A stretch of DNA of 64,000 nucleotides from Candidatus Brocadia sinica JPN1 (GTDB lineage Bacteria > Planctomycetota > Brocadiia > Brocadiales > Brocadiaceae), in the NCBI RefSeq assembly GCF_000949635.1, contig NZ_BAFN01000001.1, positions 1,426,001-1,490,000 of the forward strand, written 5' to 3'. Both the position numbers and the translations under genes were made by a program. The notes under the pieces were generated by a model. The model was not told where the DNA came from. It worked only from the letters and a program-made list of their open reading frames with translations, and ran no database searches. Position 1 is the stretch's first letter. Each line of letters starts with the position of its first letter. Of this stretch, positions 5,346 to 64,000 are shown in pieces.

Positions 5346-5509
5346 TTGATTTGCAAGGAATAGCCATATTACTGGCAAACTGAAGACCAGGAATTGTGCC
5401 ACAATGACATTATTAAATGGTTGGATTAAAAGAAGAAGATGATATAATAATATAGAAAATTTTCAACTTTTCAGAATTCATTTTTTCACTCTATGCAGGA
5501 AAATATTTC

Positions 5510-7308: not shown

Positions 7309-7734
7309 ATGCAATATAGCGCAAAGGTAATGGATCATTTTGCAAATCCCCGCAATGTAGGAGAGTTCCCTGATGCTGATGGTGTGGGGGAGGTTGGAAA
7401 TCCAGCCTGTGGCGACATTATGAAGATGTCCATCAAGGTCAAGGATAACGTAATTGTCGATGTGAAATTCAAGACCTTCGGTTGCGGCGCTGCCATAGCA
7501 ACCAGTAGTATTTCCACAGAAATGATTAAGGGAAAGACCCTGGACGAGGCCTTACAACTTACCAACAAGGCAGTGGCAGAGGCATTGGATGGGCTGCCCC
7601 CGGCCAAGATGCATTGTTCCGTACTTGCCGAAGAGGCTATTGAGGCAGCCATCGATGATTATCTCAAGAAGACGACTGGTAAAGGACTTGAAAAGAAGAA
7701 GGAACATGCACACGATGAACATCATGGGCATTAA
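7309..7734 (+). CDS. iscU: IscU/NifU-N-like Fe-S cluster scaffold with His-rich tail
   Basis: This 141-residue protein matches the NifU N-terminal/IscU fold on which iron-sulfur clusters are built. It starts YSAKVMDHFANPRNVGE and keeps all three cluster cysteines, in NPACGD, FGCGAAIA and KMHCS. The last ~16 residues are charged and His-rich (EHAHDEHHGH), an addition that could bind Ni, Zn or Fe. Start ATG 7309 has AGGAG upstream. Its presumed sulfur donor is the NifS-like protein encoded at 5510, but that protein lacks the PLP lysine, so sulfur may arrive by another route such as the TusA-like protein encoded downstream. Confidence 0.9.
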   Translation: MQYSAKVMDHFANPRNVGEFPDADGVGEVGNPACGDIMKMSIKVKDNVIVDVKFKTFGCGAAIATSSISTEMIKGKTLDEALQLTNKAVAEALDGLPPAKMHCSVLAEEAIEAAIDDYLKKTTGKGLEKKKEHAHDEHHGH

Positions 7735-7837
7735 ATTCGATTCCATAAGAAATTGTTTCAAAAAAGATCGGTTTATTCGTGAAAAAAATTGAGCAACTCT
7801 CTATAACGTAAATCAAAATTTAAAGTAGGAATTTTTC

Positions 7838-8068
7838 ATGCAGGCAGATGAAACACTGGATTGTTATGGGCTCATGTGCCCTATGCCCATCTTTAAAACT
7901 TCCAGCAAAATCAGGAATGTTGAAATAGGGAAGGTGCTTGAGGTCATTGCCACAGACGAAGGTATCAAGAAGGACATTGTTTCCTGGTGCAATACTACAG
8001 GAAACGAACTCCTGGAAATCAAAGAGGAAGATGGAGAAATTCACGTTTTTATCAGAAGGCGAAAATAG
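7838..8068 (+). CDS. TusA/SirA-family sulfur carrier protein
   Basis: A 76-residue protein of the TusA/SirA/YedF family. The hallmark Cys-Pro-X-Pro is present (CYGLMCPMPI), where the Cys carries persulfide sulfur. The rest follows the two-layer alpha/beta pattern (KVLEVIATDEGIKKDIVSWC, then a beta end). Start ATG 7838 has AGGA upstream. It closes the NifS-like/Uma2/IscU cluster, about 100 bp after iscU. In context it probably passes sulfur to or from the IscU-like scaffold or a sulfur-oxidation or thiolation pathway; which one cannot be read from sequence. Confidence 0.88.
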   Translation: MQADETLDCYGLMCPMPIFKTSSKIRNVEIGKVLEVIATDEGIKKDIVSWCNTTGNELLEIKEEDGEIHVFIRRRK

Positions 8069-8194: not shown

Positions 8195-9010
8195 TCATTT
8201 CTCTTCTTTTCCCTTTTCAATGCTCTTTCGAATCAACTTGCGCAGGATAAAGCTACGTTCTGCACCACCCAAAAGTATTTTTAGATTTTCGTACAGGGTC
8301 GGATCCGCTATCAGGGCACCCACAGTACCTTCCCCATCGGCAATCTTTCCGGTAATCTCATGCAGAGACCCGGTAGTCTTAACCAGTTTTTCCATGAGTT
8401 GTTTGCCTTTCGGGTCGTACATAAGGGAATAGAGTAATCCGTCGCCTTTTTGGAAGGCATTAATACTTTCATTGAGTGACGCAGAGATTTTGTTTAATGA
8501 TTCTGCAAAACCGCCCTCCTCAAGCTTTTTAAAAATTTTTGAAAAGGATTCAACGGTGCTGAGAGAGTTCTCAAGTGCAGCGGTATAATTGATCGGCTCT
8601 ATACTTTTTATTGAATCGCCATCCTCCACCACAGGCTCAAGGCATGCACCAGACATAATTTCCACATAAGAATCCCCCGTCACATAGCTCAACCACTTAA
8701 TAGTAGCAAAGGAATCACGGGTTATATTTTTCTGAACCGATTTATCCACCTTTAGTAACACTTCAATCCCTTTACAAGGCAATTCATTGGGCAAAACAAC
8801 GTTCTTTACCTGTCCTATTCCCACACCCATAAATCGTACCGGGGCACCTGGCTTCAATCCGTATACATTCAGAAACTTCGTTTTTACTGTAATCTGAGGC
8901 GCAAAATATCCTTTTTGAGAACCGAGAATAAAGACCATGGCGCCAAAGCCTGCCAAAGTTATCAGGGTAAAGATCCCTGCCCGCAATTCAGCAAATTGTT
9001 CTTTTGTCAT
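8195..9010 (-). CDS. mlaD: MlaD-like MCE-domain lipid transport protein
   Basis: A 271-residue protein with one N-terminal membrane helix (LRAGIFTLITLAGFGAMVFI) and an MCE domain: VYGLKPGAPVRFMGVGIGQV is the diagnostic stretch. It is expected to sit in the inner membrane with the MCE ring in the periplasm, handing phospholipid between the membrane complex and carriers. The C-terminal half is a helical segment after the MCE fold. It is the last gene of a minus-strand mlaE-mlaF-mlaD operon, 11 bp after mlaF, matching the usual Mla/Ttg2 gene set. No mlaB or mlaC is present here. Confidence 0.9.
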   Translation of the reverse strand: MTKEQFAELRAGIFTLITLAGFGAMVFILGSQKGYFAPQITVKTKFLNVYGLKPGAPVRFMGVGIGQVKNVVLPNELPCKGIEVLLKVDKSVQKNITRDSFATIKWLSYVTGDSYVEIMSGACLEPVVEDGDSIKSIEPINYTAALENSLSTVESFSKIFKKLEEGGFAESLNKISASLNESINAFQKGDGLLYSLMYDPKGKQLMEKLVKTTGSLHEITGKIADGEGTVGALIADPTLYENLKILLGGAERSFILRKLIRKSIEKGKEEK

Positions 9011-9021
9011 ACGAAGCCCCT

Positions 9022-9765
9022 TTACTCACAGATAGTGCCACTGATAAAATCTTTCACAATCGGTATCTTGGAGGTTGCAAGTTCCTTCCATGTCCCAACG
9101 ATAATAATCTTTCCCTCATGAAGCATGGCAATCCTGTTGGAAACGGTTTTCACACAGTGCAGGTCATGCGTCACAACAATTGTGGTAACCCCCAACTTCT
9201 TCTGCAATTCAATAATCAACTCATTAATGCGTTGTGCTGTCATCGGATCTAGTCCTGTCGTGGGTTCGTCGTACAAGATAATATCAGGTTCTGTAGCAAT
9301 CGCCCTTGCCAGTCCGACCCGCTTCTTCATCCCACCGCTCAATTCTGCCGGCATCTTGTTTTCAATACCGCCTAATCCCACGAGCTGTAATTTTTCAGCT
9401 ACCCGTACTCGTATTTCTCCCTCGGTAAGTTGAAGGTGCTCCCGGAGCGGATAAGCGATATTTTCAAACACCGTGAGTGAGTCAAAGAGGGCCGCCCCCT
9501 GAAACAACATCCCCACATGTTCCCGCAACTGAATCAGTTCGTCTTCCCCCATTTTGGTCACATTTTTACCAAAGACCATAATGTCGCCTTTATCAGGCTT
9601 CATAAGCCCAATTAATTCTTTCAGGAGTACACTCTTTCCAGAACCACTCCCACCAAGGAGGGACATAATTTCGCCCTCCAGGATGGACAAGTTTATCCCA
9701 TTATGGACCGGAAGTCCATTAAAGGATTTGTGGACATTTTTAAATTCGATAATTACCTTAGACAT
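9022..9765 (-). CDS. mlaF: MlaF-like ABC transporter ATP-binding protein
   Basis: The 247-residue ATPase has a Walker A (GGSGSGKSVL), Q-loop, ABC signature LSGGMKKRV, Walker B (IILYDEPTTGLDP) and the switch His (VVTHD). LSGGM followed by KKRVGLARA is typical of the MlaF/Ttg2A subgroup, which powers intermembrane phospholipid transport. It lies 47 bp downstream of mlaE and 11 bp upstream of mlaD on the same strand, so it is surely the nucleotide-binding subunit of that complex. Confidence 0.93.
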   Translation of the reverse strand: MSKVIIEFKNVHKSFNGLPVHNGINLSILEGEIMSLLGGSGSGKSVLLKELIGLMKPDKGDIMVFGKNVTKMGEDELIQLREHVGMLFQGAALFDSLTVFENIAYPLREHLQLTEGEIRVRVAEKLQLVGLGGIENKMPAELSGGMKKRVGLARAIATEPDIILYDEPTTGLDPMTAQRINELIIELQKKLGVTTIVVTHDLHCVKTVSNRIAMLHEGKIIIVGTWKELATSKIPIVKDFISGTICE

Positions 9766-9812
9766 TAAATCTGCGGTATCAAAGTTTTTTCATTGGTCTT
9801 ATGATTACATTG

Positions 9813-10589
9813 CTAGAACAGAATCAGAAACAATTTTGTCAGGAAAAAATCAGAAATCAGGATCAGGATCGATATGGTCACGACGGTAATGGTCGTAGAA
9901 CGGCCGACACCCGTTGTGCCTCCGGTAGTTTGCAGGCCAAAATAACAACCAAGCACAGCAATAAGAAACCCAAAAAACACCGTCTTCCCAATGCCACTCA
10001 ATAAATCAGAGATCGTAATCGTTGTTAAAACGGAATCGATATAGAAAGTACGATCTATCTCAAGCTCAAACAGCGCAATAATCATACCCCCAAATATCCC
10101 AACGATATCTGCCGTAACTGTAAGCAATGGTAATGTAATCATTGCGGCGAGTATCTTGGGGGTCATCAGTTTTTTCACAGGGCTTGCCCCCAGGGCACGC
10201 ATGGCATCGATCTGTTCCGTTACCTGCATGGCGCCAATCTCTGCCGCAATACCGGACCCCACCCTTGCGCCTACCATGATTGACGCCATGACAGGACCCA
10301 ACTCCCTGACAAGGGATAAGGCAACTACACTGCCGACATATATCTCGGCACCGTACATACTTAATCCATAAATCGTCTGCAAAGCCATCACCATCCCTGT
10401 AAACAGGGCAATGAGATCAACCAACAGCAGCGATCCTGCCCCGAAGTTGTCTATTTCCCGGAGTACCAGCTTCAGGTTGAACGGGGGTACAAAAATCCCC
10501 ACAAATCCCTTGATCGCCAACAAGGTCACCTGACCCACCGAGAGGATAAACTTTTTAGCTGCAACATCGATGGATAATAAAATATTCAT
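9813..10589 (-). CDS. mlaE: MlaE-like ABC transporter permease
   Basis: A 258-residue inner-membrane protein of the MlaE/Ttg2B family (DUF140). Family signatures are SLVRELGPVMASIMVGARVGSG and EIGAMQVTEQIDAMRALG, which form the ATPase-coupling helix, plus about five hydrophobic helices. It is the first gene of the mlaEFD operon. The transport direction of such systems is debated, so I call it only phospholipid transport across the periplasm. Confidence 0.93.
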   Translation of the reverse strand: MNILLSIDVAAKKFILSVGQVTLLAIKGFVGIFVPPFNLKLVLREIDNFGAGSLLLVDLIALFTGMVMALQTIYGLSMYGAEIYVGSVVALSLVRELGPVMASIMVGARVGSGIAAEIGAMQVTEQIDAMRALGASPVKKLMTPKILAAMITLPLLTVTADIVGIFGGMIIALFELEIDRTFYIDSVLTTITISDLLSGIGKTVFFGFLIAVLGCYFGLQTTGGTTGVGRSTTITVVTISILILISDFFLTKLFLILF

Positions 10590-10665
10590 AGGTTATTCTT
10601 ACTGTCCCTTAATAATAAGTAACCGCTTCTCTAAGTATCGTTTAATATTTCCACAAAACCTATGT

Positions 10666-11193
10666 TCACAAGGAATTATTTTTTGTAAATCTAAAAGTCC
10701 TTACCATATTCTCAAAATCACCCTTCACAGAATCAAATGAATCTGCCGGAGCCCAGTACACCAGATCGTAAACCTTATCTCCCACCTTGATGACATAGGA
10801 GTTGATCTTTAATTTGTTATTGTCCATTTTACCCTCTAAAATGGTATGTAGCGCACTTTGATTATCTACAAGCACAGAGTCCTCCGATACGATTTTCTTG
10901 GCTGTCATTCCAATAAGAAGATGTCTCTTGAGCATTTCCAGAGAAAACCCTTTATTTTCTATTTTACTGGAGATGATGGCAATCATGGCTTTATATTGTT
11001 TATGCCATAAGGCTATATCCACTTTATCTGCCATAACCGGTTCCCATCCATTTCCAGGTATGCCTACAGTATATCCTTCGTGCCGAGGGAAAAAGATGCC
11101 CTCTTTAATTTTTAGCGCGGCGCAACCACAGACATAAAGGAAACTTGATATGCTTAACCAGCAGATTGCCTTTTTGATTGAAAAACAACTCAC
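10666..11193 (-). CDS. Putative lipoprotein, unknown function
   Basis: A 175-residue protein with a signal peptide (KKAICWLSISSFLYVCGC) ending in a plausible lipobox, VCG before Cys, so it is likely lipidated and held in the periplasm. The mature part is a mixed alpha/beta domain with no motif I can name; the end SFDSVKGDFENMVRTFRF resembles C-termini of small PsbP/DUF1795-like stress lipoproteins, which is only a guess. It lies 76 bp upstream of mlaE on the same strand, so it may be cotranscribed. A TTGACA-N17-TATAAG promoter precedes it. Confidence 0.7.
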   Translation of the reverse strand: MSCFSIKKAICWLSISSFLYVCGCAALKIKEGIFFPRHEGYTVGIPGNGWEPVMADKVDIALWHKQYKAMIAIISSKIENKGFSLEMLKRHLLIGMTAKKIVSEDSVLVDNQSALHTILEGKMDNNKLKINSYVIKVGDKVYDLVYWAPADSFDSVKGDFENMVRTFRFTKNNSL

Positions 11194-22899: not shown

Positions 22900-24228
22900 A
22901 TGCCAGATCAAAACTTAGTGGCTTTCAACCCAAAGCATATCCAAGAAGAAATTATTGACCAATATTTCGCAAAAGACAACAATCGGCCTTGGATTGTTGG
23001 GTTTAGTGGCGGAAAAGATTCTACCATGTTGCTACAGTTAGTATGGTATGCTTTAAAAACCATACCGGTAGAGTCGCGAACAAGGAAAATTTATGTTGTC
23101 TGCAACAATACATTAGTAGAAAATCCAAAAATTCTAGAATACACTGAAAAAATATTGGATAAAATCCAAAAGGCGGCTGTGGAGCAATCATTGCCAATAA
23201 CTGTACATCGCACTGCCCCCAAACTTGAAGATACATTTTGGGTAAATTTGATAGGGAGAGGGTATCCGGCACCAAATAATGTTTTCAGATGGTGTACTGA
23301 AAGAATGAAAATCAACCCGACCACACAATTTATCCTTGAAAAGATTTCTGAAGAAAACGAAGTAATAATTCTCTTGGGAACAAGGAGTGAGGAGAGTGCC
23401 CGAAGGGCAAAGAGTATAAAGAAATTTGAGATTCAGGGACAAAGATTAGGAAAACACATTTTGCCTAGTGCATATGTTTATGCGCCCATCAAGAATGTGC
23501 TAACGGAAGAACTTTGGCAGTACCTTTCGCAAGTTCCTTCACCCTGGGGAGCTTCAAATAAGGAATTAATTACTCTTTACAGAAATGCTAATAATGGTGA
23601 TTGCCCACTCGTAATTGATAATACCACTCCGCCCTGTGGCAATAGTCGTTTTGGTTGTTGGGTTTGTACCGTTGTTAATAAGGACAATTCAATGGAAGCC
23701 TTGATTGAAAATGGCGAAGAATGGATGGAGCCTTTGATGGAACTTCGTGATTTATTGGTTACCTCACGGGGCAGCGAAGAATACCGTGAAAAAAGAAGGC
23801 GGGACGGTACAGAGAAAGAAGGTATTTTGGGACCGTACAAATCTTGGTTCAGGGCATTCTTCTTAGAAAAACTATTCCTTGCTCAAAAAGAAATCCAACA
23901 GACGCAACCGAATATTACCTTAATAAGCTATCAGGAATTAGTGGCTATCCAAGTTACGTGGTATAGAGATAATATTTTTAACTATAAAGTATCTGATATT
24001 TACAACAAGGTGTTCGGAACCAATATTGTCCTGAATGCGGGCGATGACAATTTAGTAAGAGAAAAAGAATTGCTGAAAGAGTTATGTAAGGAAAACCCTA
24101 AAGATTTTGAATTAATCAATGACTTGCTTGCGTTGCAAAAGACAAAAACAATTTTAATGAACAACAGAGGATTACAAAATGTACTGGAAAACCGGCTTGA
24201 ACAATTTGTTCGGGGAAAAACGGGCTAA
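22900..24228 (+). CDS. dndC: DNA phosphorothioation protein DndC
   Basis: DndC is the PAPS-reductase-like ATP pyrophosphatase that, with DndA/IscS, DndD and DndE, swaps a non-bridging oxygen for sulfur in the DNA backbone. The 442-residue protein has the PP-loop SGGKDS (36-41), a WCTERMKI segment, and a cysteine group (GDCP, then PPCGNSRFGCWVC) fitting the 4Fe-4S cluster. It appears intact. Base composition is AT-rich relative to its upstream neighbours, suggesting transfer. The dndD start follows after 2 bp. No dndB or dndE is seen, so modification is unlikely to be complete from this locus alone. Confidence 0.92.
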   Translation: MPDQNLVAFNPKHIQEEIIDQYFAKDNNRPWIVGFSGGKDSTMLLQLVWYALKTIPVESRTRKIYVVCNNTLVENPKILEYTEKILDKIQKAAVEQSLPITVHRTAPKLEDTFWVNLIGRGYPAPNNVFRWCTERMKINPTTQFILEKISEENEVIILLGTRSEESARRAKSIKKFEIQGQRLGKHILPSAYVYAPIKNVLTEELWQYLSQVPSPWGASNKELITLYRNANNGDCPLVIDNTTPPCGNSRFGCWVCTVVNKDNSMEALIENGEEWMEPLMELRDLLVTSRGSEEYREKRRRDGTEKEGILGPYKSWFRAFFLEKLFLAQKEIQQTQPNITLISYQELVAIQVTWYRDNIFNYKVSDIYNKVFGTNIVLNAGDDNLVREKELLKELCKENPKDFELINDLLALQKTKTILMNNRGLQNVLENRLEQFVRGKTG

Positions 24229-24230
24229 AT

Positions 24231-25229
24231 ATGTTTGTTGATAAAATTATTTTGGAAGATTTCCGTATTTACTATGATTATCATGAATTAAATTTTTCTA
24301 AGAGCAGCAAAAAGAATGTTTTTATTATATCCGGGAGCAATGGTTTCGGGAAGACTACACTTCTCAATTCGTTAGTTTGGTGTCTCTATGGCAAGTTGAT
24401 GGTGGACGTAGATGAAAAGTTTAGAAAAGAAATATATGAATCCGGTGGATATAAACATTTTGCCATTGAAAATTTAAACAAGCTTGCACGAGAGAACGGA
24501 AAACTTTCTTATCAGGTTTCCATAACATTATCAGATATTATTATTCCTTCTTTGCCCTGTAAAGAAGTTAAAATTACAAGAACTTTTGACGTTGAAAAGG
24601 GTGAAGATTCTGTGGAGGTTTTAGTAGATGGAATGGAAAATGAGCTTACACGGGAGGTCGGACAAGAAATCTTTATCAACGATTTTATTCTCCCGAAAGA
24701 AATTGCCAAATTCTTTTTCTTCGATGCTGAAAAAATTGTGTCCCTTGCAGAAATAAAGTCCATTGATGACAAACGCAATCTCAGCAAGGCATATTCGGAA
24801 GTATTAGGGATAAAGAAGTATGAAGATTTGAAAACTAATTTAGAGGATTTAAGGATCCGCTTTAAACGAAACTCAGCTTCTGAAAAAGACAGAAATAAAT
24901 TTGAAGAACTCCAAAAAGAAATAACACAATTCAAAAACGTAATTCAGGAATGCGAAAGACAGATTACGATATTACAGGAGGAAAAGGCCTCTAAAAAACG
25001 ATCATCGGAACAGTATCAGGAAAAACTTATTCGTGAAGGAAATACCATCACGGTTGAAGAATTAAACGACCTTAAAAAACTAAAGGTGAAACTTACAGAG
25101 GAAGCGGATGCAATCAAAGCGAAACTAACAGAACTGTTGGACCTTATTCCTTTTGCCAATGATGAATATTGTTCCGAGTTTATTGGAGTAAGAATCAAAC
25201 GATTTTTCTCGGATCAACTTGCTGCTTAA
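24231..25229 (+). CDS. dndD: DndD, truncated (N-terminal half only)
   Basis: DndD is an SMC/Rad50-like ATPase of about 650-670 residues needed for phosphorothioation. This copy has 332. It keeps the start LEDFRIYYDYHELNF, Walker A (GSNGFGKTTLL), the KFFFFDAEKI segment and the first coiled-coil arm (about 190-300). Coherent sequence ends near LLDLIPFA (about 309), after which ~23 unrelated residues lead to the stop. The second coil, ABC signature and Walker B are missing, so it should not hydrolyse ATP normally. A deletion that removed the rest of dndD and any dndE, bringing in the HNH gene, is the simplest explanation. Confidence 0.88.
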   Translation: MFVDKIILEDFRIYYDYHELNFSKSSKKNVFIISGSNGFGKTTLLNSLVWCLYGKLMVDVDEKFRKEIYESGGYKHFAIENLNKLARENGKLSYQVSITLSDIIIPSLPCKEVKITRTFDVEKGEDSVEVLVDGMENELTREVGQEIFINDFILPKEIAKFFFFDAEKIVSLAEIKSIDDKRNLSKAYSEVLGIKKYEDLKTNLEDLRIRFKRNSASEKDRNKFEELQKEITQFKNVIQECERQITILQEEKASKKRSSEQYQEKLIREGNTITVEELNDLKKLKVKLTEEADAIKAKLTELLDLIPFANDEYCSEFIGVRIKRFFSDQLAA

Positions 25230-25231
25230 GA

Positions 25232-26218
25232 GTGAAAGATAAAATCAAAAAGTTATCCTATTATATAAACGCTTTTCAAAAGCTAAGAAGGGATTATAAA
25301 AAGGGAGGTGCTCCCCATAAACCTATCTTGCTTTTAAGCATCATTCAAGCATATGAAAATAATCTGATTGCAAGTAATAAAATTTACATTACTCCAGAAT
25401 TGGTTGGCTTCTTCAAAAGCAATTGGGCTACTTTAGTAAAAACCGACCACGATTTAACATTTGCACTTCCGTTTTATCATATGAATTCTGAACTTTTTTG
25501 GAGAATTATTCCAAATGCCGGGTGTGAAAAATGGATAGAAGCTAAAGGCTCAATGAGAAGTTTCAAAAATTTAAACACTGCGGTTGCATATGCCGAAATT
25601 GATTCTGAATTATTTGAATTACTTAAAGGAAAAGAAAACAGAGAGATTTTAAGACAAACTTTATTGGACAAATATTTTCCAGACACGAAAGGTAGTTACA
25701 CGAGTCACAATGAAAACGATTACCTAAACAATTTAACAAGTGAAATTTTGGAAGAGGAATCAGCAGAATATCGTAAGCATGTTCAAGAGTTGAAAAAGAA
25801 GTTGGATGAAGAGAACTATCAAGAAGAGATTTATTTAAGAGGAGGTATCTTTAAAAGAGAGATACCAAAAATTTATAACAACACCTGTTGTATTTCTGAA
25901 TTTAGGGTGGATGCAACTATTAGTATCTCAATGATTGATGCGTGTCATATCATCCCATTTAGTGAAAGTTATGATGACACAATAAAAAATGGGATTGCTT
26001 TGTGTCCTAATCTACATAGGGCATTTGACAGAGGGCTAATTTCAATTGATGATAATTACAAAGTAATTGTTTCAAAGAAATTTATAGAAAGCAAAAGCAG
26101 TTATTTATTACGACAATTTGAAGGTAAAATGATTTTATTACCTACAGAAAAGAAATTTCATCCCAGCATTGAAAATCTTTCTCAACACAGAAATTACCAC
26201 AAGGATAACTTATCATAA
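25232..26218 (+). CDS. HNH endonuclease with N-terminal phosphorothioate-sensing-like (SBD) domain
   Basis: The chosen GTG start (25232) is 2 bp after the dndD stop; the frame stays open upstream inside dndD. N-terminal ~150 residues (APHKPILLLSIIQAYE, FALPFYHM, then FWRII) resemble the sulfur-binding domain of phosphorothioate-dependent McrA-type restriction enzymes. The C-terminal third has an HNH site: CHIIPFSES for the DH-like part, then GIALCPNLHRAFDRGLI with the N-x8-H pattern. Known relatives cut DNA with phosphorothioates, i.e. type IV restriction. Finding it fused in order with dnd modification genes is paradoxical unless the modification is lost here, as the truncated dndD suggests. 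The SBD assignment is from motif memory only. Confidence 0.7.
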   Translation: MKDKIKKLSYYINAFQKLRRDYKKGGAPHKPILLLSIIQAYENNLIASNKIYITPELVGFFKSNWATLVKTDHDLTFALPFYHMNSELFWRIIPNAGCEKWIEAKGSMRSFKNLNTAVAYAEIDSELFELLKGKENREILRQTLLDKYFPDTKGSYTSHNENDYLNNLTSEILEEESAEYRKHVQELKKKLDEENYQEEIYLRGGIFKREIPKIYNNTCCISEFRVDATISISMIDACHIIPFSESYDDTIKNGIALCPNLHRAFDRGLISIDDNYKVIVSKKFIESKSSYLLRQFEGKMILLPTEKKFHPSIENLSQHRNYHKDNLS

Positions 26219-26605: not shown

Positions 26606-26890
26606 GTGGAGAGGAAGCAATATAATGGGGAATTTAAGGCGAGAGTAGCGATAGAAGCGATAAAGGGGGAGAAGACTGCAAACGAGCTAGCAGGGCAATA
26701 TGGGGTACACCCAACGCAGATAGCACAGTGGAAGAAGCAGGTAATAGAAGAGATACCGAGGATATTTTCGCTGAAGAAGGTGCAAGATGCCAGAAAGGAG
26801 GATGAATTGCGTGCGTCGTTGTACCAGCAGATAGGGCAATTGAAGGTTGAACTGGATTGGCTGAAAAAAAAAGTTGGGATCAACGGTTGA
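26606..26890 (+). CDS. IS3-family transposase OrfA
   Basis: A 94-residue HTH_Tnp_1 protein (RKQYNGEFKARVAIEAIKGEKT, GVHPTQIAQWKKQ) with a leucine-zipper-like C-terminus (LYQQIGQLKVELDWLKKK). It binds the IS ends. Its last codons include nine consecutive A (26864-26872), after which the OrfB sense lies in the +1 frame. The start is the first codon of the open frame near a GAGG-like site. Confidence 0.88.
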   Translation: MERKQYNGEFKARVAIEAIKGEKTANELAGQYGVHPTQIAQWKKQVIEEIPRIFSLKKVQDARKEDELRASLYQQIGQLKVELDWLKKKVGING

Positions 26891-27758
26891 GGAAAGGAAG
26901 AGGTTAATAGAGCCAGAAAATGAGGAGATAAGTGTAAGTCGGCAGTGTGAGTTACTGGGGATATCCCGTTCAGTCTTTTATTATAAGGCGATTGGTGAGA
27001 GTGCATATAATCTTCAATTGATGAACCTGATAGATGAGTATTATACGGGGTATCCGTTTTATGGGGTAAGGCGGTTGACGGCATGGTTAAGAAAGGAAGG
27101 GCATGAGGTAAACCCTAAGAGGGTAAAACGGTTAATGAGGAAGATGGGATTATATGCGATCTATCCGAAGCCTTGGCTAAGTAAAGGAGGTGAAGGACAC
27201 AAGAAATACCCATATTTACTCAGAGGATTGAGTATAGAGTATCCAGATCACGTGTGGTGTGCGGATATAACGTACATACGGCTCAATCAGGGGTATGTAT
27301 ATCTCATGGCAATAATGGACTGGTATAGTCGGTATGTGCTGTCGTGGGAGACATCAATAACCCTGGATGTGGGATTTTGTCTGGAAGCATTAGACAGGGC
27401 AATAAGGAAGGGATGCCCTGAGATATTTAACACGGACCAGGGATCGCAGTTTACGAGCAATGCGTTTACTGGGAAATTAGAGGGAGCCGGGGTAAAGATC
27501 AGCATGGATGGAAGGGGACGAGTGTTTGATAACATTTTTATAGAGCGTTTGTGGAGGTCGATAAAATACGAGGAGGTGTATTTAAAAGACTATAAGACGG
27601 TAAGAGAGGCAGTGGATGGTTTAAGGAGGTATTTTGATTTTTATAACAACGAGAGATTACATCAGTCGCTTGAATACAGAGCGCCAGCAACGCTGTATTG
27701 TAGTAACAAAAAGGCACGGAAAGGAGAGATGGTAAATACTCTTGAACTGACCGGGTAA
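26874..27758 (+). CDS. IS3-family transposase OrfB (DDE integrase core)
   Basis: Encodes the rve catalytic core: the first Asp in VWCADITYIRL, the second in FNTDQGSQFTS, and the Glu in FIERLWRSIKYEEVY, plus the leading SVSRQCELLGISRS. The listed start is a TTG (26874) without a ribosome site. The frame opens just after a TGA at 26862, i.e. within the nine-A run of orfA. Expression as an OrfAB fusion (WLKKK joined to GSTVEERKRLI) would need a +1 (or -2) slip at that run, or transcriptional slippage. Otherwise intact. Confidence 0.88.
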   Translation: MGSTVEERKRLIEPENEEISVSRQCELLGISRSVFYYKAIGESAYNLQLMNLIDEYYTGYPFYGVRRLTAWLRKEGHEVNPKRVKRLMRKMGLYAIYPKPWLSKGGEGHKKYPYLLRGLSIEYPDHVWCADITYIRLNQGYVYLMAIMDWYSRYVLSWETSITLDVGFCLEALDRAIRKGCPEIFNTDQGSQFTSNAFTGKLEGAGVKISMDGRGRVFDNIFIERLWRSIKYEEVYLKDYKTVREAVDGLRRYFDFYNNERLHQSLEYRAPATLYCSNKKARKGEMVNTLELTG

Positions 27759-39337: not shown

Positions 39338-40873
39338 ATGCTGGCAAAAGTCAAGAGTGTTGCCGTTTTCGGTATAGATGCGTACTTGCTGGATATTGAA
39401 GTTTATGTCGCCACGGGTGACATGCCTTATATTGCCATCGTTGGTTTACCGGACACTGCGGTTAAGGAGAGCCGTGACAGGGTAAAGGCGGCAGTCAATA
39501 ATAGCGGTTATAGGTTTCCTTATAAACCCATGACAATAAATCTTGCGCCAGCAGACCGCAAGAAAGAAGGCCCGGTTTTTGAATTACCCATAGCGGTTGG
39601 TATACTTATAGCAACACATCAAATCGAGATTCCAGATATCCAGGAATATGCCATTGTGGGCGAGCTATCTCTGGATGGCAGGCTGCGTCCTGTTAAGGGA
39701 TGTTTATCAATGGCGTTTAAGTGTAAAGAACTGGGGATAAAAAAATTTTTGCTTCCCCCTGAAAATGCGTCTGAGGCTGCTGTCGTTGACGGACTTGACA
39801 TTATTCCCGTTGAAACCCTGGCAGATACCGTAGGGATTCTGACCAATTCTTCCCCCTTTACACCGTATCGGATTGACCTGGAAGCAGTGTTCAAGGAGTC
39901 TTCCGACTACGATATGGATTTTGCTGACGTAAAAGGGCAGGAGCATGTCAAACGGGCATTGACAGTTGCCGTTGCGGGAAGTCATAATGTGATAATGGTA
40001 GGACCGCCCGGCGCCGGCAAAACTATGCTTGCACAGCGTATCCCGACAATCATGCCTCGCCTCACCTTAGAGGAAGCCCTGGATACAACCAAGATTTATA
40101 GCGTATTAGGCATCCTCGGGCCGAGACAGTCATTAATTGCAACACGGCCTTTTCGTGCTCCGCACCATACGATTAGTACCGCCGGGTTAATTGGCGGTGG
40201 TTCATTTCCAAGGCCCGGCGAGATTAGCATTTCACACAATGGCGTGCTTTTTTTAGATGAACTCCCGGAATTTGAACGAAAGACACTGGAAGTGCTTCGT
40301 CAGCCCCTTGAGACAGGCAATGTGACGATTTCCCGCGCCTTGAATTCCGTCACCTATCCTGCCAATTTTATGCTGGTATGTGCCATGAATCCCTGTCCGT
40401 GCGGATATTACACGGACAACCGGAGAGAATGCCATTGTACGCCGCACCAAATTCAGAGGTACATGTCAAAGGTCTCGGGCCCGTTATTAGACAGAATGGA
40501 TATTCAAATAGAGGTGCCAGCCGTACGGTATAGTGAGCTTGTTACAGAGAGGGAAATGCAATCTTCTGTGGATATACGGGAAAAAGTGACGGTTGCCCGC
40601 ACAATGCAAAAAGGGAGGTTTGAAGGCCAGCCAATAAAAGCAAATGCGCATATGTCTTCCAAACAAGTCAAAAAGTACTGTGTAATGGAGAAATCCGCAG
40701 AGACGTTGCTTCATCAGGCACTGACGGAATTGGGTCTTTCGGCACGCGGATACACTAAGATTTTAAAAGTTGCACGCACCATTGCAGACCTTGACGAGAG
40801 TGAACATGTAAAAGTAGAGCACGTATCTGAAGCGATACAATACCGGGGTCTTGACAGGAGTTTATGGAAATGA
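39338..40873 (+). CDS. YifB/ComM-family Mg-chelatase-like AAA+ ATPase
   Basis: 511 residues. N-terminal ChlI domain (GLPDTAVKESRDRVKAAVNN), then an AAA+ module with Walker A (GPPGAGKTML), Walker B region (GVLFLDELPEF), a Cys-rich insert (CAMNPCPCGYYTDNRRECHC) and a C-terminal domain with SARGYTKILKVARTIADL. ComM/YifB proteins are helicases aiding branch migration in natural transformation. The start has no upstream rival. The stop overlaps the next gene by 4-10 nt. Confidence 0.92.
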   Translation: MLAKVKSVAVFGIDAYLLDIEVYVATGDMPYIAIVGLPDTAVKESRDRVKAAVNNSGYRFPYKPMTINLAPADRKKEGPVFELPIAVGILIATHQIEIPDIQEYAIVGELSLDGRLRPVKGCLSMAFKCKELGIKKFLLPPENASEAAVVDGLDIIPVETLADTVGILTNSSPFTPYRIDLEAVFKESSDYDMDFADVKGQEHVKRALTVAVAGSHNVIMVGPPGAGKTMLAQRIPTIMPRLTLEEALDTTKIYSVLGILGPRQSLIATRPFRAPHHTISTAGLIGGGSFPRPGEISISHNGVLFLDELPEFERKTLEVLRQPLETGNVTISRALNSVTYPANFMLVCAMNPCPCGYYTDNRRECHCTPHQIQRYMSKVSGPLLDRMDIQIEVPAVRYSELVTEREMQSSVDIREKVTVARTMQKGRFEGQPIKANAHMSSKQVKKYCVMEKSAETLLHQALTELGLSARGYTKILKVARTIADLDESEHVKVEHVSEAIQYRGLDRSLWK

Positions 40874-42360
40874 ACGTCCTTTTGATAGACCCGCCTTTTT
40901 ATCGGTTTTTCAATTACTATAACCGATATTTCCCTCTGGGATTAAGTTATCTGTCCTCAGTACTGAAAAAAGCCGGGCATCAGGTGACTGTCTATGATGC
41001 CGACTGTAACAAAAATTCAAAGGGGATGGATTACACGAGATTGCCTGAAAAATATCGTATCTATTTGAAGGAATTGAAGAACCCGGAAAATCCGATCATA
41101 AAGGAGATTTCTGAAACCCTTGCACGATACCAACCGGATGTTATCGGAGTGACAGTTATGACCCCCAAGGCAGCCTCTGCGTTTACCATTGCCTCCCTTG
41201 CAAAAAAATATAATGAAAACTGTGCTGTTGTCTTTGGCGGTCCTCATGCAACTTTAAAGGCAGATGAGATCCTGAAAAATACGAGAGGTGTTGATTTTGT
41301 TGTAAGTGGAGAAGGCGAGGTTGTATTGGTTGAACTGGTAAACACATTACATACAAAAAATAACAATTTCAGTACCATACAGGGACTTTCCTATCGGCAG
41401 GGGGACAAGATTATCCACAACAGTACGAGAAATTTTATTGATAATTTAGATTGTCTTCCCTTTCCAGACAGAGAAACGTTACTCGGCCTGGATACTTATA
41501 CATCGGAAGATATGGGTTTGCTCATGGGCAGTCGTGGCTGTCCCTATAGCTGTTCCTATTGTGCAACGCAGATATGGACGAGAAAGGTACGGTATCGTTC
41601 CTTGGCAAATATTTTGGAAGAAATCAGGTATGTACACCAACGGTATGGCACCCGCCAGTTTACCTTTAAGGACGATTCTTTTACTGTTAACAGAAAGAGG
41701 GTCATGGAATTTTGCACTACATTAATTGATACTAACTTAAAAATCAATTGGGACTGCAATACGCGGGTGGATTTAGTGGATTTAGAACTCTTAAAGGCGA
41801 TGAAGAAGGCGGGATGTAATAGCATCAAGGTGGGGATTGAGTCAGGGAGTGAAAGGATATTAAAGTTAATGGACAAGGGCATTACCCTGAAACGCATAGG
41901 AGAAGCAGCAAGGCTTTTTCGAGAAGTGGGCATTCATTGGACGGCCTATTTTATGATGGGTATACCTACAGAGACCAGAGAAGATGTCCAAAAAACCCTG
42001 GATTTACTATATACAATAAAACCCAGTTTTGCCTCTATTGGCGTCTATGAGCCATTTCCGGGGACAAAACTCTTTGAAGTCGGCGTTGAGCATGGGCTTG
42101 TGAACAGAGAAATGTCCCACGAAGATTTCTTCACCCGTATACCGAGCGACTATTATCTGAAAGACGTGAATCAAAGAGTTGATACCATGGGCTATGAAGA
42201 TTTTGTCATGCTGGAAAACAAAGTAAAAAGCGCCTTTCATAATTATAATAGAGGCATTATGCGGATCTTTGAGAGGGCAAAGTCCAGAAGTCATGTCTAT
42301 TTACACAATCCCAGGATCTTTTTCAATGACATTGAAAAATTTTTAGGATGGATACGGTAG
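40870..42360 (+). CDS. B12-binding-domain radical SAM protein
   Basis: Residues 1 to about 165 form a cobalamin-binding-like domain (PPFYRF, LGLSYLSSVLKKAGHQVTVYDAD, VFGGPHATLKADEIL); the canonical DxHxxG is not seen, as is common in this group. The radical SAM core has CPYSCSYC (Cys 224, 228, 231) for the 4Fe-4S cluster and WDCNTRVDLV and GIESGSERIL further on. Similar proteins modify lipids such as hopanoids or bacteriochlorophyll, or act as methyltransferases; the substrate here is unknown. ATG 40864 or 40870 overlaps the yifB end. The sugar transferase gene follows after 64 bp. Confidence 0.85.
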   Translation: MNVLLIDPPFYRFFNYYNRYFPLGLSYLSSVLKKAGHQVTVYDADCNKNSKGMDYTRLPEKYRIYLKELKNPENPIIKEISETLARYQPDVIGVTVMTPKAASAFTIASLAKKYNENCAVVFGGPHATLKADEILKNTRGVDFVVSGEGEVVLVELVNTLHTKNNNFSTIQGLSYRQGDKIIHNSTRNFIDNLDCLPFPDRETLLGLDTYTSEDMGLLMGSRGCPYSCSYCATQIWTRKVRYRSLANILEEIRYVHQRYGTRQFTFKDDSFTVNRKRVMEFCTTLIDTNLKINWDCNTRVDLVDLELLKAMKKAGCNSIKVGIESGSERILKLMDKGITLKRIGEAARLFREVGIHWTAYFMMGIPTETREDVQKTLDLLYTIKPSFASIGVYEPFPGTKLFEVGVEHGLVNREMSHEDFFTRIPSDYYLKDVNQRVDTMGYEDFVMLENKVKSAFHNYNRGIMRIFERAKSRSHVYLHNPRIFFNDIEKFLGWIR

Positions 42361-58583: not shown

Positions 58584-59297
58584 TTAGCGATTCTCCTCAG
58601 TGCCTTCTGAGCACATACCTTTTCCTATTCGACGGAGGAAATGCGCCGGCTCCATCACTTCAGGCCGTACCTGCCTACGGAGGGCTTCACGAACAAAAGC
58701 CACATGATCCACAAGGTGCAATTCCGGATACACCCGGTCGATTGCTTCAATCAGCACCAACTCCTCAACGGCGATGGCTATTCCTGGATCAAACCAGTGT
58801 GCAGGCTCTTGCCATTCCCACCCCTGTTTCAATGCCTTACCACCGATTCCGGCTACTGACTTAGCTCGAATGTCGGTCGTGAGTCTCTCCTTAAAGAAAT
58901 GGGCTGGCTCCATCCAGTCTGTCCGCAGTTTTAAATGGAGGGCATCAAACCAGATTAAGTACAGATTGTAGCTCCCCGCCGCTACCTTCCATGGGTCCGG
59001 CAGCGGTCCGAATACTTTGGATAACTCTTTATCAAAAAGCGTATCTTTGAGGTGCTCTGCTCCCATGCACATACGCTTAAATACCCCCTTATCTCCTATC
59101 TCGAACACGACAGGCACAGTGGTAGTTACCACAAACCCGATTTGCCGTGATATCCTGTCAAATGCATTATCAATTTCCTTCTGAAATTTCTCCCGAATCC
59201 TGATGTAGATGTCGATCAAGTCGTCGTATAGCCTTACGACGGCTGGATGTGCCGGTTCCACCCAATCACGTATACGAGCAAAAGTTTTTTCGTCCAT
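58584..59297 (-). CDS. Protein with four EPAH motifs, unknown function
   Basis: 237 residues, single frame, strong ribosome site AAGGAGGTG before the ATG. The tetrapeptide EPAH occurs four times: residues 14-17 (DWVEPAHP), 130-133 (DWMEPAHF), 164-167 (EWQEPAHW) and 216-219 (EVMEPAHF); three have Trp two before and three an aromatic after. The four copies use different codons (GAACCGGCACAT, GAGCCAGCCCAT, GAGCCTGCACAC, GAGCCGGCGCAT), so they are kept at protein level. The intervening sequence is ordinary helical, non-repetitive, without a signal peptide. Downstream of a cobalamin-type radical SAM gene on the same strand; the motif may be its target or a metal ligand set. I know no family for it. 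Confidence 0.75.
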   Translation of the reverse strand: MDEKTFARIRDWVEPAHPAVVRLYDDLIDIYIRIREKFQKEIDNAFDRISRQIGFVVTTTVPVVFEIGDKGVFKRMCMGAEHLKDTLFDKELSKVFGPLPDPWKVAAGSYNLYLIWFDALHLKLRTDWMEPAHFFKERLTTDIRAKSVAGIGGKALKQGWEWQEPAHWFDPGIAIAVEELVLIEAIDRVYPELHLVDHVAFVREALRRQVRPEVMEPAHFLRRIGKGMCSEGTEENR

Positions 59298-59390
59298 ATT
59301 GCACCTCCTTATGATTGTGTAATGTCAAATGTGAGAGAAACTCGTCTTCCCCTCATTTTTTACTGACAGCTTCAAGTTATTCCGTTCAAG

Positions 59391-59473
59391 TCCCCCTTAG
59401 TAAAGGGGGATTCAGGGGGTTGTGTTTTTCCTGGGCTATTTTACAACCCCCTAGCCCCCTTTTCTAAGGGGGA
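59391..59473. repeat. Long imperfect inverted repeat, C/G-rich element
   Basis: Left arm 59391-59422 (TCCCCCTTAGTAAAGGGGG onwards) pairs with the right arm 59443-59473 (ending CTAAGGGGGA) around ~20 nt. Each arm also has its own small hairpin. A related C/G element follows at 59577-59627. The whole 59298-59671 gap has no gene; it separates the radical SAM and EPAH genes. Confidence 0.8.
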
Positions 59474-59671
59474 TTTTTATGCTTCATACTACCCAGAAAC
59501 CCGCTTAAAAAAATGAAAATTCCCTGTATAATTAAGGTTTTCCATAGTACCCTATAAAAACTTCTTCTTTTTTTATTTCCCCCTTGTCTCCTCCTGGCAA
59601 AGGAGGGGATTTAGGGGTGGTTAATCTGTTTGCGGTTTAGCCGCACCATGGGATAGTTCTGGGAAATAAGT

Positions 59672-61450
59672 TCACCTCCTTTCTTCTTTTGGTTCTGCAA
59701 ATCGGCTCTTAAATACGTTATAGGGAATTGGCGCTGACGTCACTCCCAACAAATCTGTCTCATCCATCCTTTCGGCCTCTGACGTCACAAATTCCAACTT
59801 CTCCAGATTGTCCCTGCTAGAATATGGCATAGGTTTGCAGTTCAGGAAGGACAGCGCTCCGGTATTTGACATAAACCTCGGCACCCTGGCATCCTGACCA
59901 CGACGGTCGTACGTGTTGCTCAACCAACGCAGAATCGACTCACCCTGGACATGCAAGCCCCTGCTCCTTTCGTCAACACGTTCTCTCATCTCGCGTGCAA
60001 AGCCCCGTATCATGACATGATCGTTCGGATCTGCGGTTGTCACGAAGTCATAGATCTGGCAGAGACACTCGTAGGTATCAAGGTTGGTCTGCTTGATAAA
60101 GTTACGCACAGATGCACGCAGTGTTTGCGTTAGCACTTCCGGGTGGAAGCGCCGCAGGAGCTGGAAATAGAAATCCACTTGCATATTGAAGTAGTGCAGT
60201 CCGAAATCGCTGAAATTGCGATCAAAGAATGTGTAGTTAGCGATTTGATGGAAAGCCTCCGAGCGCGGGTCTTTAAGCCGGTAATCGTATCCAAAGTAGT
60301 CACCAAGCAACCTGCCTTCAGTCTTCAGTTTTGCCTCTAACCCGGTACCGGGGTAAGCCTCTGCACGGCAGAAGTTAAATGGATTCTCAATATGCCGTTC
60401 GATAAAACGTAAGTTGACCAGGATGTCATCTAAGACTGTGTCAGGCTCAAACATGAGTAAGTTATAGGCGAGATGCACATCAAAGTCATTGAGAATACGC
60501 AGTGCATTTAAAATCTGATCGAGGGTGCATTTGCGGTTCAGATTGCGTAGCCCATTCTCATGGGCGTTTTCTACTCCTAAAAATACGCGAAACAATCCAA
60601 GGTCGTCCAGCACGCGGATTGAGTCGTGGGTAATGCTATCGGGTCGCGCCTTGACCGCTATGGCAATTCCTTCGATTCCTTCCCGCTGCAGTCCTTCTCG
60701 CAGCTCCTCAAAGCGGCGAAGAGCCTTTTCTGGTTTTGGGAGAAAGAAGTTGTCGTCCTGGAAATTAAAGATACGAACATCATGATGAAAGTAGAGATCC
60801 TTCATCTCTGCTACGATGTTCTCCACGTTTCGCACCCGAAACTTCTTTCCGCCTCCCCTTTCATACCAGGCGTTGATGCTGCAAAAGGCACAGTTGCGCC
60901 AGCATCCCCGGCTGGTCAGAATGCTGGCAATGGGCTTATCAAAATATTCATGGAATGTTATACGTTTTGGAAATGATAATGCGTCAAGATTATCTTGATT
61001 GTCCGTTGCAAGGTTGGTTGTTACTGATCCATCAGATTTTCGATAGCAAAGGCCATATACCCTGGATAGATCTTCTAGATGATCAGCCAACATACTAACG
61101 ATATGTTCGCCCTCACCCAGACAGACCGAATCAAATGCGGTAAAATCCCTGAGCAGATGCTCTGAGTTGAACGAGGCGAAGGGACCACCTGCCGTCAAGT
61201 GACCATGATAACAGCCTTCCCGGAGCGCCTGCGCCAGGTGGCAGAATTCTCGCGCGCGGCCTGTGAACATCATAGACAAGCCGGTGATCTGTGGTGAAAA
61301 GGCGATTACCCGCTTTACTGCATCCGATATGTCAAACTCTGAATTGAAAGGAACGATTTCCACTTTATGTCCTTTGTGTTCTAATGCAGAGGCTATGTAT
61401 CGGAGACCAAGGTTTTCTTCCAATTCTGCGCCTACCAATGCAACTTTCAT
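59672..61450 (-). CDS. Cobalamin-domain-type radical SAM enzyme
   Basis: 592 residues. Residues 1 to about 150 form a B12-binding-like Rossmann domain (LGLRYIASALEHKGHKVEIV, then GGPFASFNSEHLL and VCLGEGEHIV) without the classic DxHxxG. The radical SAM domain begins at SRGCWRNCAFC (Cys 183, 187, 190), followed by FNFQDDNFFLPK and ARPDSITHDSI. A C-terminal region of ~200 residues has no domain I recognise and could hold the substrate. RBS AGAGGTG precedes the ATG. Upstream of the EPAH gene (374-bp gap, same strand). Class B-type enzymes methylate or rearrange; some modify peptides. The substrate is unproven. Confidence 0.82.
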   Translation of the reverse strand: MKVALVGAELEENLGLRYIASALEHKGHKVEIVPFNSEFDISDAVKRVIAFSPQITGLSMMFTGRAREFCHLAQALREGCYHGHLTAGGPFASFNSEHLLRDFTAFDSVCLGEGEHIVSMLADHLEDLSRVYGLCYRKSDGSVTTNLATDNQDNLDALSFPKRITFHEYFDKPIASILTSRGCWRNCAFCSINAWYERGGGKKFRVRNVENIVAEMKDLYFHHDVRIFNFQDDNFFLPKPEKALRRFEELREGLQREGIEGIAIAVKARPDSITHDSIRVLDDLGLFRVFLGVENAHENGLRNLNRKCTLDQILNALRILNDFDVHLAYNLLMFEPDTVLDDILVNLRFIERHIENPFNFCRAEAYPGTGLEAKLKTEGRLLGDYFGYDYRLKDPRSEAFHQIANYTFFDRNFSDFGLHYFNMQVDFYFQLLRRFHPEVLTQTLRASVRNFIKQTNLDTYECLCQIYDFVTTADPNDHVMIRGFAREMRERVDERSRGLHVQGESILRWLSNTYDRRGQDARVPRFMSNTGALSFLNCKPMPYSSRDNLEKLEFVTSEAERMDETDLLGVTSAPIPYNVFKSRFAEPKEERR

Positions 61451-61799: not shown

Positions 61800-64000
61800 T
61801 TAGACTTCCTGTGAAATTGGCGACTCCTCCAAACAGAATCCGATATCAGCTGTGACGCAAAACGCAATCCCATGGCTGCCATAGTTGGTGCGGTCGCACA
61901 CCACCATGTGAATGACGTATCCGCAGGGGTCCATGCCGGCCGTGTCCAGCCTCCAATGGCCAGACTCGCCTGTGGTAGGCACCGTTGGGAAGGAACGGCT
62001 GGTCGCGAAGGTGTAAGTAATTCCTCCGTCACCCGAGAGCATGACCGTGGCCCCATGGGCTGGCCCATCTGGGATGACGTCGAGGCTTATGCTCCCGAAG
62101 TGCTGGTTCACCAGGTCGCTCGTGCCAGGGTCATGAGCCTCATACGTGCCGGTCAGGATCGTCCCCACGGGGAATTTACCGCAGTCTATAGCCGGAACGG
62201 GGTTGCCGTTGAACTCGGCGCCGGTGATGGTCAAGGTAACCGGGGCGTATGGCTGAAGTGCAATATTTGCCGCAGGAACTGACGATGGGGCGGTGTTGTC
62301 AACGCGTACCCTGATTACCTGGGCGCCGGGATAGAATGTGGGAGGACTGACATTCGGATCCTTCGCCTCCATCCTGATTTCCCATTCTCCCTCCATTGAT
62401 GCGTTCGTCAGCCACCTGGCGAGTTTATCTACCAGCAGGAAGCGGGTGGAGGGAGCCGTGTGGTCTTCCAGGTACTCATACCAGCCCTCGCCAAGGCCAT
62501 CCGCATCGTCGGTGGCCGTGAGGTTGAGGTTAAATATCGTGTCTCCAGGCGATTCCTCCAACTGTACTGCACCCACGAATTTTGTGACATCAACGTCAAC
62601 CGTGTTGGTAAGCGGATGCCAGGTGTCAATACCGTCGTCTTTTCGTACCAGGATTCTGTACTTTAGCGGCAAAGCCCCGCCGCCAAAAGAATCAGGCAGG
62701 GTGCCCGCAATACGTCCGGTGATGGTAATACCACCTCCAAAGGGGCTCAAGTTCACTGAAAAGATACCAATCTCCGCATCGCCTGTAGCCAGCCCGGTTG
62801 CTGGATCAATGTCATCAACCGAGATGTCGCCAACGGTCTCGATAACCGGGGTACGTGCCTCCGCCTTTCCGTGCCGTAACTGGATAAGGCACTCCTCGCG
62901 GTTTCCCCAGACCGGGACATAGTTCGGGTTTGCGGGGGGAGGTGGGGTCTCCCAGGATAGAATGGCGCGTAGACGGACGACCTTCGGCCCGGCCTCACAG
63001 GGCACTAGATATTGGGTGAAGTCTTTTTTGAGAAAAACAGCATACTGGACGTCCTCCGGCGGGATGGTCTGGAGGTCGTGGACCTGTACGGTGGCCGTGC
63101 CCATATAGATGAAACCACTGCCGTCTCCGAAGTCGATCCAGAAGGCTACGTACTCCGTTGACCCCTTGCCGCATAGCCCGCCGGAATAACCGTAAGGCCT
63201 TTTGACCGTGAGTACCGCCTCCAGCAGATCACGCTTGGAGCGAAGCCCGATGCACTTTAGCTCTTCAAAGCTGGTGTCTCCGTCCGTTACGACCTGAAGT
63301 TTGCCGAAAAGATCCGCGATTTCATTCGCGTTGAGTCCAAGGGACGCTAAAGGGCTGTCCCCGTTTGCTGTGACTAAGGCTGAGGTTGTTGTCTTAGCTG
63401 CCAGGAGCTTCTGTGCCTCTGCGAAGCCGAACCGGTGGACTGGCACGCCCTTGTCCGCATAGAGCGCCTTCCTCTGTGACAACGTTGGCGTCGCCAAAGG
63501 AGCGGCTTTGACCTTTATATTTGGGTCCAGGCCGGCAATAATTGGGCCAATCGGGTCGGGGATCTTGACCTGAAGGTTTTCCAGCCCTTTTGGCACATCA
63601 CCCACGAAGAAAGAGTACTTGGGATGAATCTGTACCTGGACGGTCATGACGTTCCCATAGACCGGCGTCCAATTGGGTTGATTTGCCGGCGGCGGCGTGT
63701 CCCAGGAAAGGATGGCCCGCACCCTGACAATGTTCTCGGTGGAGCAAAGCCTCTTGAACGGGGTGAAGTCCTTCCTCACGGCGTAACAGAGGGGCTTTTC
63801 TCCGGGGATGTTATGGACTCTCACGCTGTCCATTCCCACATCGTGCCAGACCCCGTTGTCGAATATGTCTACGTAGAATCGGACATACTCAAATGACCCC
63901 GGGCTGCAGATATCGCCTCCGTATCCAAACTCCTGCTTAACGTGGAGCGCGGCTTCCAGACGGTTGGATGGAGGGTTTAGCCCTACGCACATAAGCTCTT
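61800..64000 (-). CDS. Large protein with duplicated Cys-containing beta module, 5' end beyond window
   Basis: Open at the right edge; at least 732 residues. Two similar modules of about 130 residues: one at the edge (LMCVGLNPPSNRLEAALHV, FGYGGDICSPGSFEYVRF, VRAILSWDTPPP) and one from about residue 250 (LKCIGLRSKRDLLEAVL, YGYSGGLCGKGSTEYVAF, VRLRAILSWETPPPP), both ending PVYGN or PVWGN. Each has paired Cys. The C-terminal half looks like Ig-like or cadherin-type beta domains (FNLNLTATDDADGLGEGWYEY, WEIRMEAKDPNVSPP). No enzyme motif. It may be secreted or surface-exposed; the signal peptide would lie outside the window. GC-rich compared with the rest of the window. Confidence 0.7.
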   Translation of the reverse strand, partial: ELMCVGLNPPSNRLEAALHVKQEFGYGGDICSPGSFEYVRFYVDIFDNGVWHDVGMDSVRVHNIPGEKPLCYAVRKDFTPFKRLCSTENIVRVRAILSWDTPPPANQPNWTPVYGNVMTVQVQIHPKYSFFVGDVPKGLENLQVKIPDPIGPIIAGLDPNIKVKAAPLATPTLSQRKALYADKGVPVHRFGFAEAQKLLAAKTTTSALVTANGDSPLASLGLNANEIADLFGKLQVVTDGDTSFEELKCIGLRSKRDLLEAVLTVKRPYGYSGGLCGKGSTEYVAFWIDFGDGSGFIYMGTATVQVHDLQTIPPEDVQYAVFLKKDFTQYLVPCEAGPKVVRLRAILSWETPPPPANPNYVPVWGNREECLIQLRHGKAEARTPVIETVGDISVDDIDPATGLATGDAEIGIFSVNLSPFGGGITITGRIAGTLPDSFGGGALPLKYRILVRKDDGIDTWHPLTNTVDVDVTKFVGAVQLEESPGDTIFNLNLTATDDADGLGEGWYEYLEDHTAPSTRFLLVDKLARWLTNASMEGEWEIRMEAKDPNVSPPTFYPGAQVIRVRVDNTAPSSVPAANIALQPYAPVTLTITGAEFNGNPVPAIDCGKFPVGTILTGTYEAHDPGTSDLVNQHFGSISLDVIPDGPAHGATVMLSGDGGITYTFATSRSFPTVPTTGESGHWRLDTAGMDPCGYVIHMVVCDRTNYGSHGIAFCVTADIGFCLEESPISQEV

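Follow-up and report, generated by a model that had tools for sequence, protein, structure and literature searches.

The substrates of the B12-binding radical SAM (B12-rSAM) enzyme PbsB are ribosomal peptides that carry a motif and are encoded beside it, and the B12-rSAM superfamily includes enzymes that form residue crosslinks at motifs in precursors encoded nearby (PMC12257519). TVGG repeats of TvgA are modified by the radical SAM enzyme TvgB, giving cyclopropylglycine (PMC9062424), and Mmp10 methylates an arginine in a large enzyme, methyl-coenzyme M reductase (PMC5943407). Here we describe two adjacent genes in a window of 64 kb, the whole stretch of DNA that was analysed, which probably encode an enzyme and its substrate. 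Judged from sequence, the enzyme belongs to a B12-rSAM family predicted to act at several copies of a [D/E]-P-x-[H/P] motif, carried by a dedicated partner or by a tail fused to the enzyme.

The window enzyme shares its B12-binding plus radical SAM architecture with PbsB/BpmD, ApyD and rSAM_ocin_1, but differs from them in its candidate substrates, which are longer proteins along which [D/E]PxH/P motifs are dispersed. The TvgB/TvgA and His-Xaa-Ser (Hxs) systems resemble the window pair in that the gene for a radical SAM enzyme adjoins one for a protein in which a short motif occurs many times, although the motif differs. To our knowledge, the TvgB and Hxs radical SAM enzymes have no B12-binding domain. 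Mmp10 (Arg) and the Gln C-methyltransferase (TIGR04014) modify residue carbons in a full-length protein, whereas the candidate substrate here is a dedicated multi-motif protein. As in the biosynthesis of RiPPs, a precursor-like gene with a conserved, repeated, core-like motif adjoins the putative modifying enzyme. A literature search on the motif names and on B12-rSAM enzymes in anammox bacteria, with coverage that mostly excluded subscription papers, returned no report.

A B12-binding radical SAM enzyme and its EPAH-bearing neighbour

The pair lies on the minus strand and comprises the following features.

59672..61450, minus strand: B12-binding radical SAM (rSAM) enzyme, 592 aa, upstream of the EPAH gene on the same strand
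61094..61420, minus strand: B12-binding domain, enzyme residues 11-119 (PF02310, E 1.5e-15, above the gathering score)
60440..60919, minus strand: radical SAM domain, enzyme residues 178-337 (PF04055, E 1e-17, above the gathering score)
59675..60268, minus strand: C-terminal about 198 residues of the enzyme, without a family match
59298..59671, minus strand: spacer of 374 bp between enzyme and partner, with an inverted repeat (59388-59409 / 59455-59476)
59302..59311, minus strand: Shine-Dalgarno-like TAAGGAGGTG before the EPAH gene, read from the sequence
58584..59297, minus strand: EPAH partner protein, 237 aa, without a Pfam, NCBIfam or PDB relative; homologues in loci L002, L003 and L004
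59247..59258, minus strand: EPAH copy 1, residues 14-17, DWVEPAHP, same in 4 homologues
58899..58910, minus strand: EPAH copy 2, residues 130-133, DWMEPAHF, same in 4 homologues
58797..58808, minus strand: EPAH copy 3, residues 164-167, EWQEPAHW, same in 4 homologues
58641..58652, minus strand: EPAH copy 4, residues 216-219, EVMEPAHF, same in 4 homologues; it begins the tail that is expanded in ANME

The B12-binding domain precedes the radical SAM domain, which is the layout of the B12-binding radical SAM superfamily (class B-like). The CX3CX2C motif at C183, C187 and C190 is invariant in all 13 aligned family members. Past residue about 394 the enzyme has zero matches to Pfam or NCBIfam models, in line with the first-pass annotation, which had described a B12-type radical SAM enzyme with an unassigned C-terminus upstream of the EPAH gene. 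This C-terminus is conserved among the four EPAH-type enzymes and can be aligned to about residue 472 in diverged members.

None of the curated cut-offs was reached by the window enzyme, whether for rSAM_ocin_1 (TIGR03975, 78.5 bits against 282), ApyD (NF050148, 62 against 750), TIGR04014 (63 against 360), HpnR (TIGR04367, 107 against 650) or BchE (TIGR02026, 94 against 481), and other family members likewise fell below the cut-offs of the named B12-rSAM models. HpnR and BchE, whose substrates are a lipid and a porphyrin, are the nearest curated models over the catalytic core, and the enzyme C-terminus lies outside the matched part. Neither an MNIO nor an RRE partner was recognised at the pair, with no RRE model match in Pfam or NCBIfam. 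That the core scores nearest to models for hopanoid and porphyrin enzymes, though far below their cut-offs, is one point in favour of an alternative that we consider unlikely, in which the enzyme binds the [D/E]PxH/P repeats of a scaffold partner and modifies another site or another substrate (protein, lipid or small molecule). Strict EPAH invariance and the tandem expansion in ANME (both described below) fit a substrate at least as well.

The EPAH copies are spaced 116, 34 and 52 residues apart, with Trp at position -2 in three of the four and an aromatic residue directly after the motif in three of the four. Codons differ among all four copies. The first-pass annotation had reported the four unevenly spaced copies and their Trp and aromatic flanks, and we find them at residues 14, 130, 164 and 216. 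Composition alone predicts 0.003 EPAH, against the four present, and at least four matches to [DE]Px[HPQ] arose in 1 of 5000 residue shuffles; a six-frame scan of the 64-kb window found no EPAH elsewhere. A PDB sequence search with an EPAH profile returned only weak matches, to haemagglutinin HA2 coiled coils (best E 0.03), which we judged to be chance. AlphaFold models built from 4-sequence alignments reached a pLDDT of 34 for the EPAH protein and 37 for the enzyme, too poor for assessing whether the EPAH copies cluster.

The inverted repeat in the spacer has 22-nt arms that are 91% complementary and 45 nt apart, and blastn found no second copy of the spacer with its inverted repeat in the 64-kb window. 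The AAGGAGGTG core of the Shine-Dalgarno-like element also stands directly before the start of the EPAH gene in L002 and L003. The 374-bp gap had been read at first as weakening the case for an operon. We do not regard it as a strong objection, because the corresponding gap is 205 bp in one relative, 327 bp in another and 84 bp in a third with swapped gene order.

Conservation of the pair and selection on EPAH

When 84,980 species genomes were scanned, the EPAH protein had three close relatives: one in Ca. Brocadia carolinensis, at 83% identity, one in a Nitrospinae MAG (85%) and one in an ANME-2 MAG (58%), the last on a 3.3-kb MAG contig for which mis-binning is possible. Judged by the Ca. 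Brocadia locus, the window very probably comes from an anammox planctomycete. The corresponding enzymes are 88%, 89% and 69% identical to the window enzyme. In all three relatives the enzyme gene adjoins the EPAH gene on the same strand, which bears out the co-occurrence that the first-pass annotation had proposed to look for. The two bacterial relatives keep the order enzyme then EPAH; on the ANME-2 contig the EPAH gene comes first.

In wider searches, 2 of the 392 planctomycetes encoded the EPAH protein, as did 1 genome among 295 from the ANME phylum, and this patchy distribution suggests horizontal transfer. The same patchiness would fit chance neighbours on a shared mobile island, but the adjacency survives 31% divergence of the enzyme and a swap in gene order, and analogous partners stand beside distant family members, so that we give this explanation only a very slight chance. 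Viral contigs yielded zero relatives of the EPAH protein or the enzyme. On plasmids the EPAH protein had zero relatives, and the B12-rSAMs found there were all distant (at most 307 bits, compared with about 700 bits for members inside the training set), none with an adjacent plausible gene carrying at least two motifs.

Across the four homologues, the whole sample for these counts, the EPAH columns are invariant (16/16, against 112/221 of the other columns; Fisher p 4e-5), and the codon differences within EPAH over all pairs are 51 synonymous and 0 non-synonymous, against 381 and 397 in the rest of the gene. These counts indicate that EPAH is under strong purifying selection, and the earlier proposal that selection had kept its amino acids, made from the differing codons of the four copies, agrees with them.

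The homologues range from 232 to 336 aa with a conserved N-terminal region, and EPAH number varies among them, as had been suggested for checking: four in each of the three bacterial proteins, and seven plus one EPAQ in the ANME protein. Past its first three copies, the ANME protein carries units starting at residues 240, 252, 264, 276, 288, 300 and 312, an exact 12-residue period, which read in order EPAH, DTAQ, EPAQ, EPAH, EPAH, EAAQ and EPAH. As these units hold EPAH or degenerate forms of it, the motif multiplies and degenerates as a unit.

Distant family members and their partners

Distant members were found through enzyme profiles, not motif searches, and the family-depth searches covered Planctomycetota and the ANME/methanogen phylum. 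The planctomycete-wide search gave seven further members (E 1e-118 to 1e-152), the next B12-rSAMs scoring 1e-77 or weaker; the archaeal members are in genomes G686, G445, G863 and G853. These distant enzymes are 28-43% identical to the window enzyme.

At the methanogen loci L035, L041 and L043, the enzyme adjoins a protein with two hydrophobic segments (identified by eye) followed by three DPVH-type motifs, in the contexts CDPVHDPG, CD(P/Q)VH and (F/Y)DPVH. The motifs are DPVH three times in L035 and L043, and DPVH, DQVH and DPVH in L041. These partners also have conserved Cys, and no homology between the EPAH and DPVH proteins was detectable (hhalign probability 0.1). The other loci are listed below; the motif number in the partners of L036, L077, L079 and L075 is within chance by shuffling, and the fused tails of L074 and L076 carry a repeated motif whose residue order, E-M/R-A/V-P, is other than [D/E]PxH/P.

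L036: 111-aa neighbour with ADPAPPW and ADPAVGM
L078: neighbour with five DP(P/V/S)P
L079 and L080: neighbour with two DPxP each
L077: neighbour with one DPIP
L075: secreted HEAT-like tandem proteins with YGVxxP-like and EMVAPDP segments
L074 and L076: without a separate partner; enzymes of 791 and 777 aa, each with a tail carrying EMAP, EMVP, ERVP or ERAP

The DPxP-type partners are small proteins with one to five DPxP, found in planctomycetes and one archaeon, and the partners at L036 and L077-L080 have in common a coiled-coil-like C-terminus. As the searches indicate, the enzyme family is rare, spans bacteria and archaea, and lies repeatedly beside otherwise unrelated multi-motif proteins.

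These partners bear on whether EPAH could instead be a structural or metal-binding motif that is independent of the enzyme, the two proteins sharing a pathway with no enzyme-substrate relation. The invariant His and Glu in each EPAH could bind metal, and the conserved Cys of the methanogen partners would suit such a role. Against this, Gln replaces His in some ANME units, and in the DPxP partners, which accompany enzymes of the same family, the motif contains no His. The pure metal-binding reading, which the first-pass annotation had offered beside modification, is weakened because of these DPxP partners, and we regard it as improbable.

The partners are also scaffold-like, with a coiled-coil end or as membrane proteins, and short proline motifs often serve as binding motifs, both of which would favour docking of the enzyme on the repeats with action elsewhere. 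Conversely, the archaeal loci have no constant third gene beside the pair.

Pairing statistics and enzyme phylogeny

For the pairing test we counted ORFs that lie no more than 450 bp from the enzyme, on its strand, and carry at least two [DE]Px[HPQ]. Such an ORF adjoins the enzyme at 11 of 15 family loci and at 1 of 38 other B12-rSAM loci (Fisher p 2e-7), a contrast to be read with the facts that the pattern was widened from EPAH during the work, after DPVH and DPxP had been seen, that the 38 control loci are mostly orthologues of one another and that the 15 family loci include near relatives. A further archaeal search, made after a prediction had been written down, found no new family member.

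In a maximum-likelihood tree, the enzymes of the EPAH, DPVH, DPxP and fused/EMxP types each fall on one side of a single branch (bootstrap 98-100), and the whole family stands apart from the control B12-rSAMs (support 92/92). Motif type and enzyme phylogeny thus agree, as enzyme-substrate specificity would give. Such clades are also expected from partners simply inherited with the enzyme, though the partners have no detectable homology across types. One of the tree controls was a second B12-type radical SAM gene of the window (40864-42360), which is distant from the enzyme studied here.

Neighbouring genes

Upstream of the pair lies a further large gene.

61800..64000, running past the window edge (in L009 to 2158), minus strand: large protein with N-terminal LERERAQFRSLILQNPNYFGNL; homologues upstream of the pair in L002 and L003

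The protein is about 780 aa, with the N-terminal pattern LERERAQFR(S/A)LIL(Q/A)NPNYFGN and two internal repeats (TTYEELxCVGL...). It stands upstream of the enzyme in three genomes, with the homologues at 4187-6400 in L002 and 5359-7704 in L003, and has no confident Pfam match, one homologue giving a weak match to GEVED. Further upstream, past the right edge of the window, L009 carries a caspase-family gene (2704-3540; C14, E 8e-28), and a secreted 420-aa protein (3679-4941) and a small LNPQPLPPG protein (5096-5497) are also encoded upstream of the large protein. The LNPQPLPPG protein has a relative on a Thiothrix plasmid (35% identity). We considered the large protein, the caspase and the LNPQPLPP protein as parts of the system and left them out because the methanogen loci showed none of them; the ANME contig is not long enough for a decision.

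Protease genes also occur near other family loci, at 6638-7228 in L002 (C70/C39), 3458-4855 in L077 (C13) and 4362-5960 in L079 (S8). Together with the caspase C14 near the window pair and the 12-residue tandem units of the ANME protein, they would fit a classical RiPP pathway, a narrower form of the enzyme-substrate reading in which the active product would be short modified EPAH peptides cut from the partner by a protease. The proteases, however, belong to differing families and none is constant, the first three EPAH copies are embedded in a conserved protein more than 200 residues long, and neither a transporter nor a leader peptide was recognised. We therefore hold this form to be doubtful.

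Two other sets of genes were noted. Beside the fused enzyme of L074, in planctomycete G208, is a CRISPR-like repeat array (7615-7992), one reading frame of which gives CRNPSIHGRLK units, and beside the array a 776-aa gene (8490-10820) resembling a Cas12f/TnpB-type nuclease. In the window, positions 22900-26218 hold DndC-like and shortened DndD-like genes (DNA phosphorothioation) and then an HNH-type gene, followed by an insertion-sequence transposase at 26874-27758.

Discussion

The recurrent pairing suggests that the motifs are what this B12 radical enzyme recognises and chemically modifies, and the locus is best read as a RiPP-like system not described before, whose dedicated B12-rSAM enzyme would act at repeated [D/E]PxH/P sites. 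Counting against an enzyme-substrate relation, the EPAH protein differs from a typical short RiPP precursor in its length and in its conservation beyond the motifs. No maturation gene is constant near the family loci. The modification system that the first-pass annotation had put forward gains from linkage across phyla, purifying selection, copy-number variation and the non-homologous [D/E]PxH or [D/E]PxP partners; it is the metal-binding part of that proposal that has lost ground.

In the proposed mechanism, the enzyme would act on the motif of its dedicated partner, here EPAH, so that the motif itself would be the modified site. Other B12-radical SAM enzymes suggest, by analogy, that the reaction may draw on SAM and cobalamin for a carbon-centred modification located at each motif or next to it, either C-methylation or the formation of a C-C bond. 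What the EPAH, DPVH and DPxP types share best is the acidic residue and the Pro, and these two may form the common core. We propose more tentatively that this is a previously undescribed family of bacterial and archaeal B12-rSAM enzymes devoted to [D/E]-P-x-[H/P] repeats in soluble, membrane-anchored, coiled-coil or cis-fused proteins, and that its Asp/Glu-Pro chemistry would be new.

If the enzyme-substrate relation is true, a new post-translational modification is predicted at a simple motif that lends itself to testing, and both domains would supply enzyme-substrate pairs for such tests. Multi-site B12-radical SAM enzymes are wanted as a means of doing chemistry on unactivated carbons; the motif would also offer a route to the substrates of otherwise unassigned enzymes in the large B12-rSAM superfamily. 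The carriers include anammox bacteria and methane-cycling archaea.
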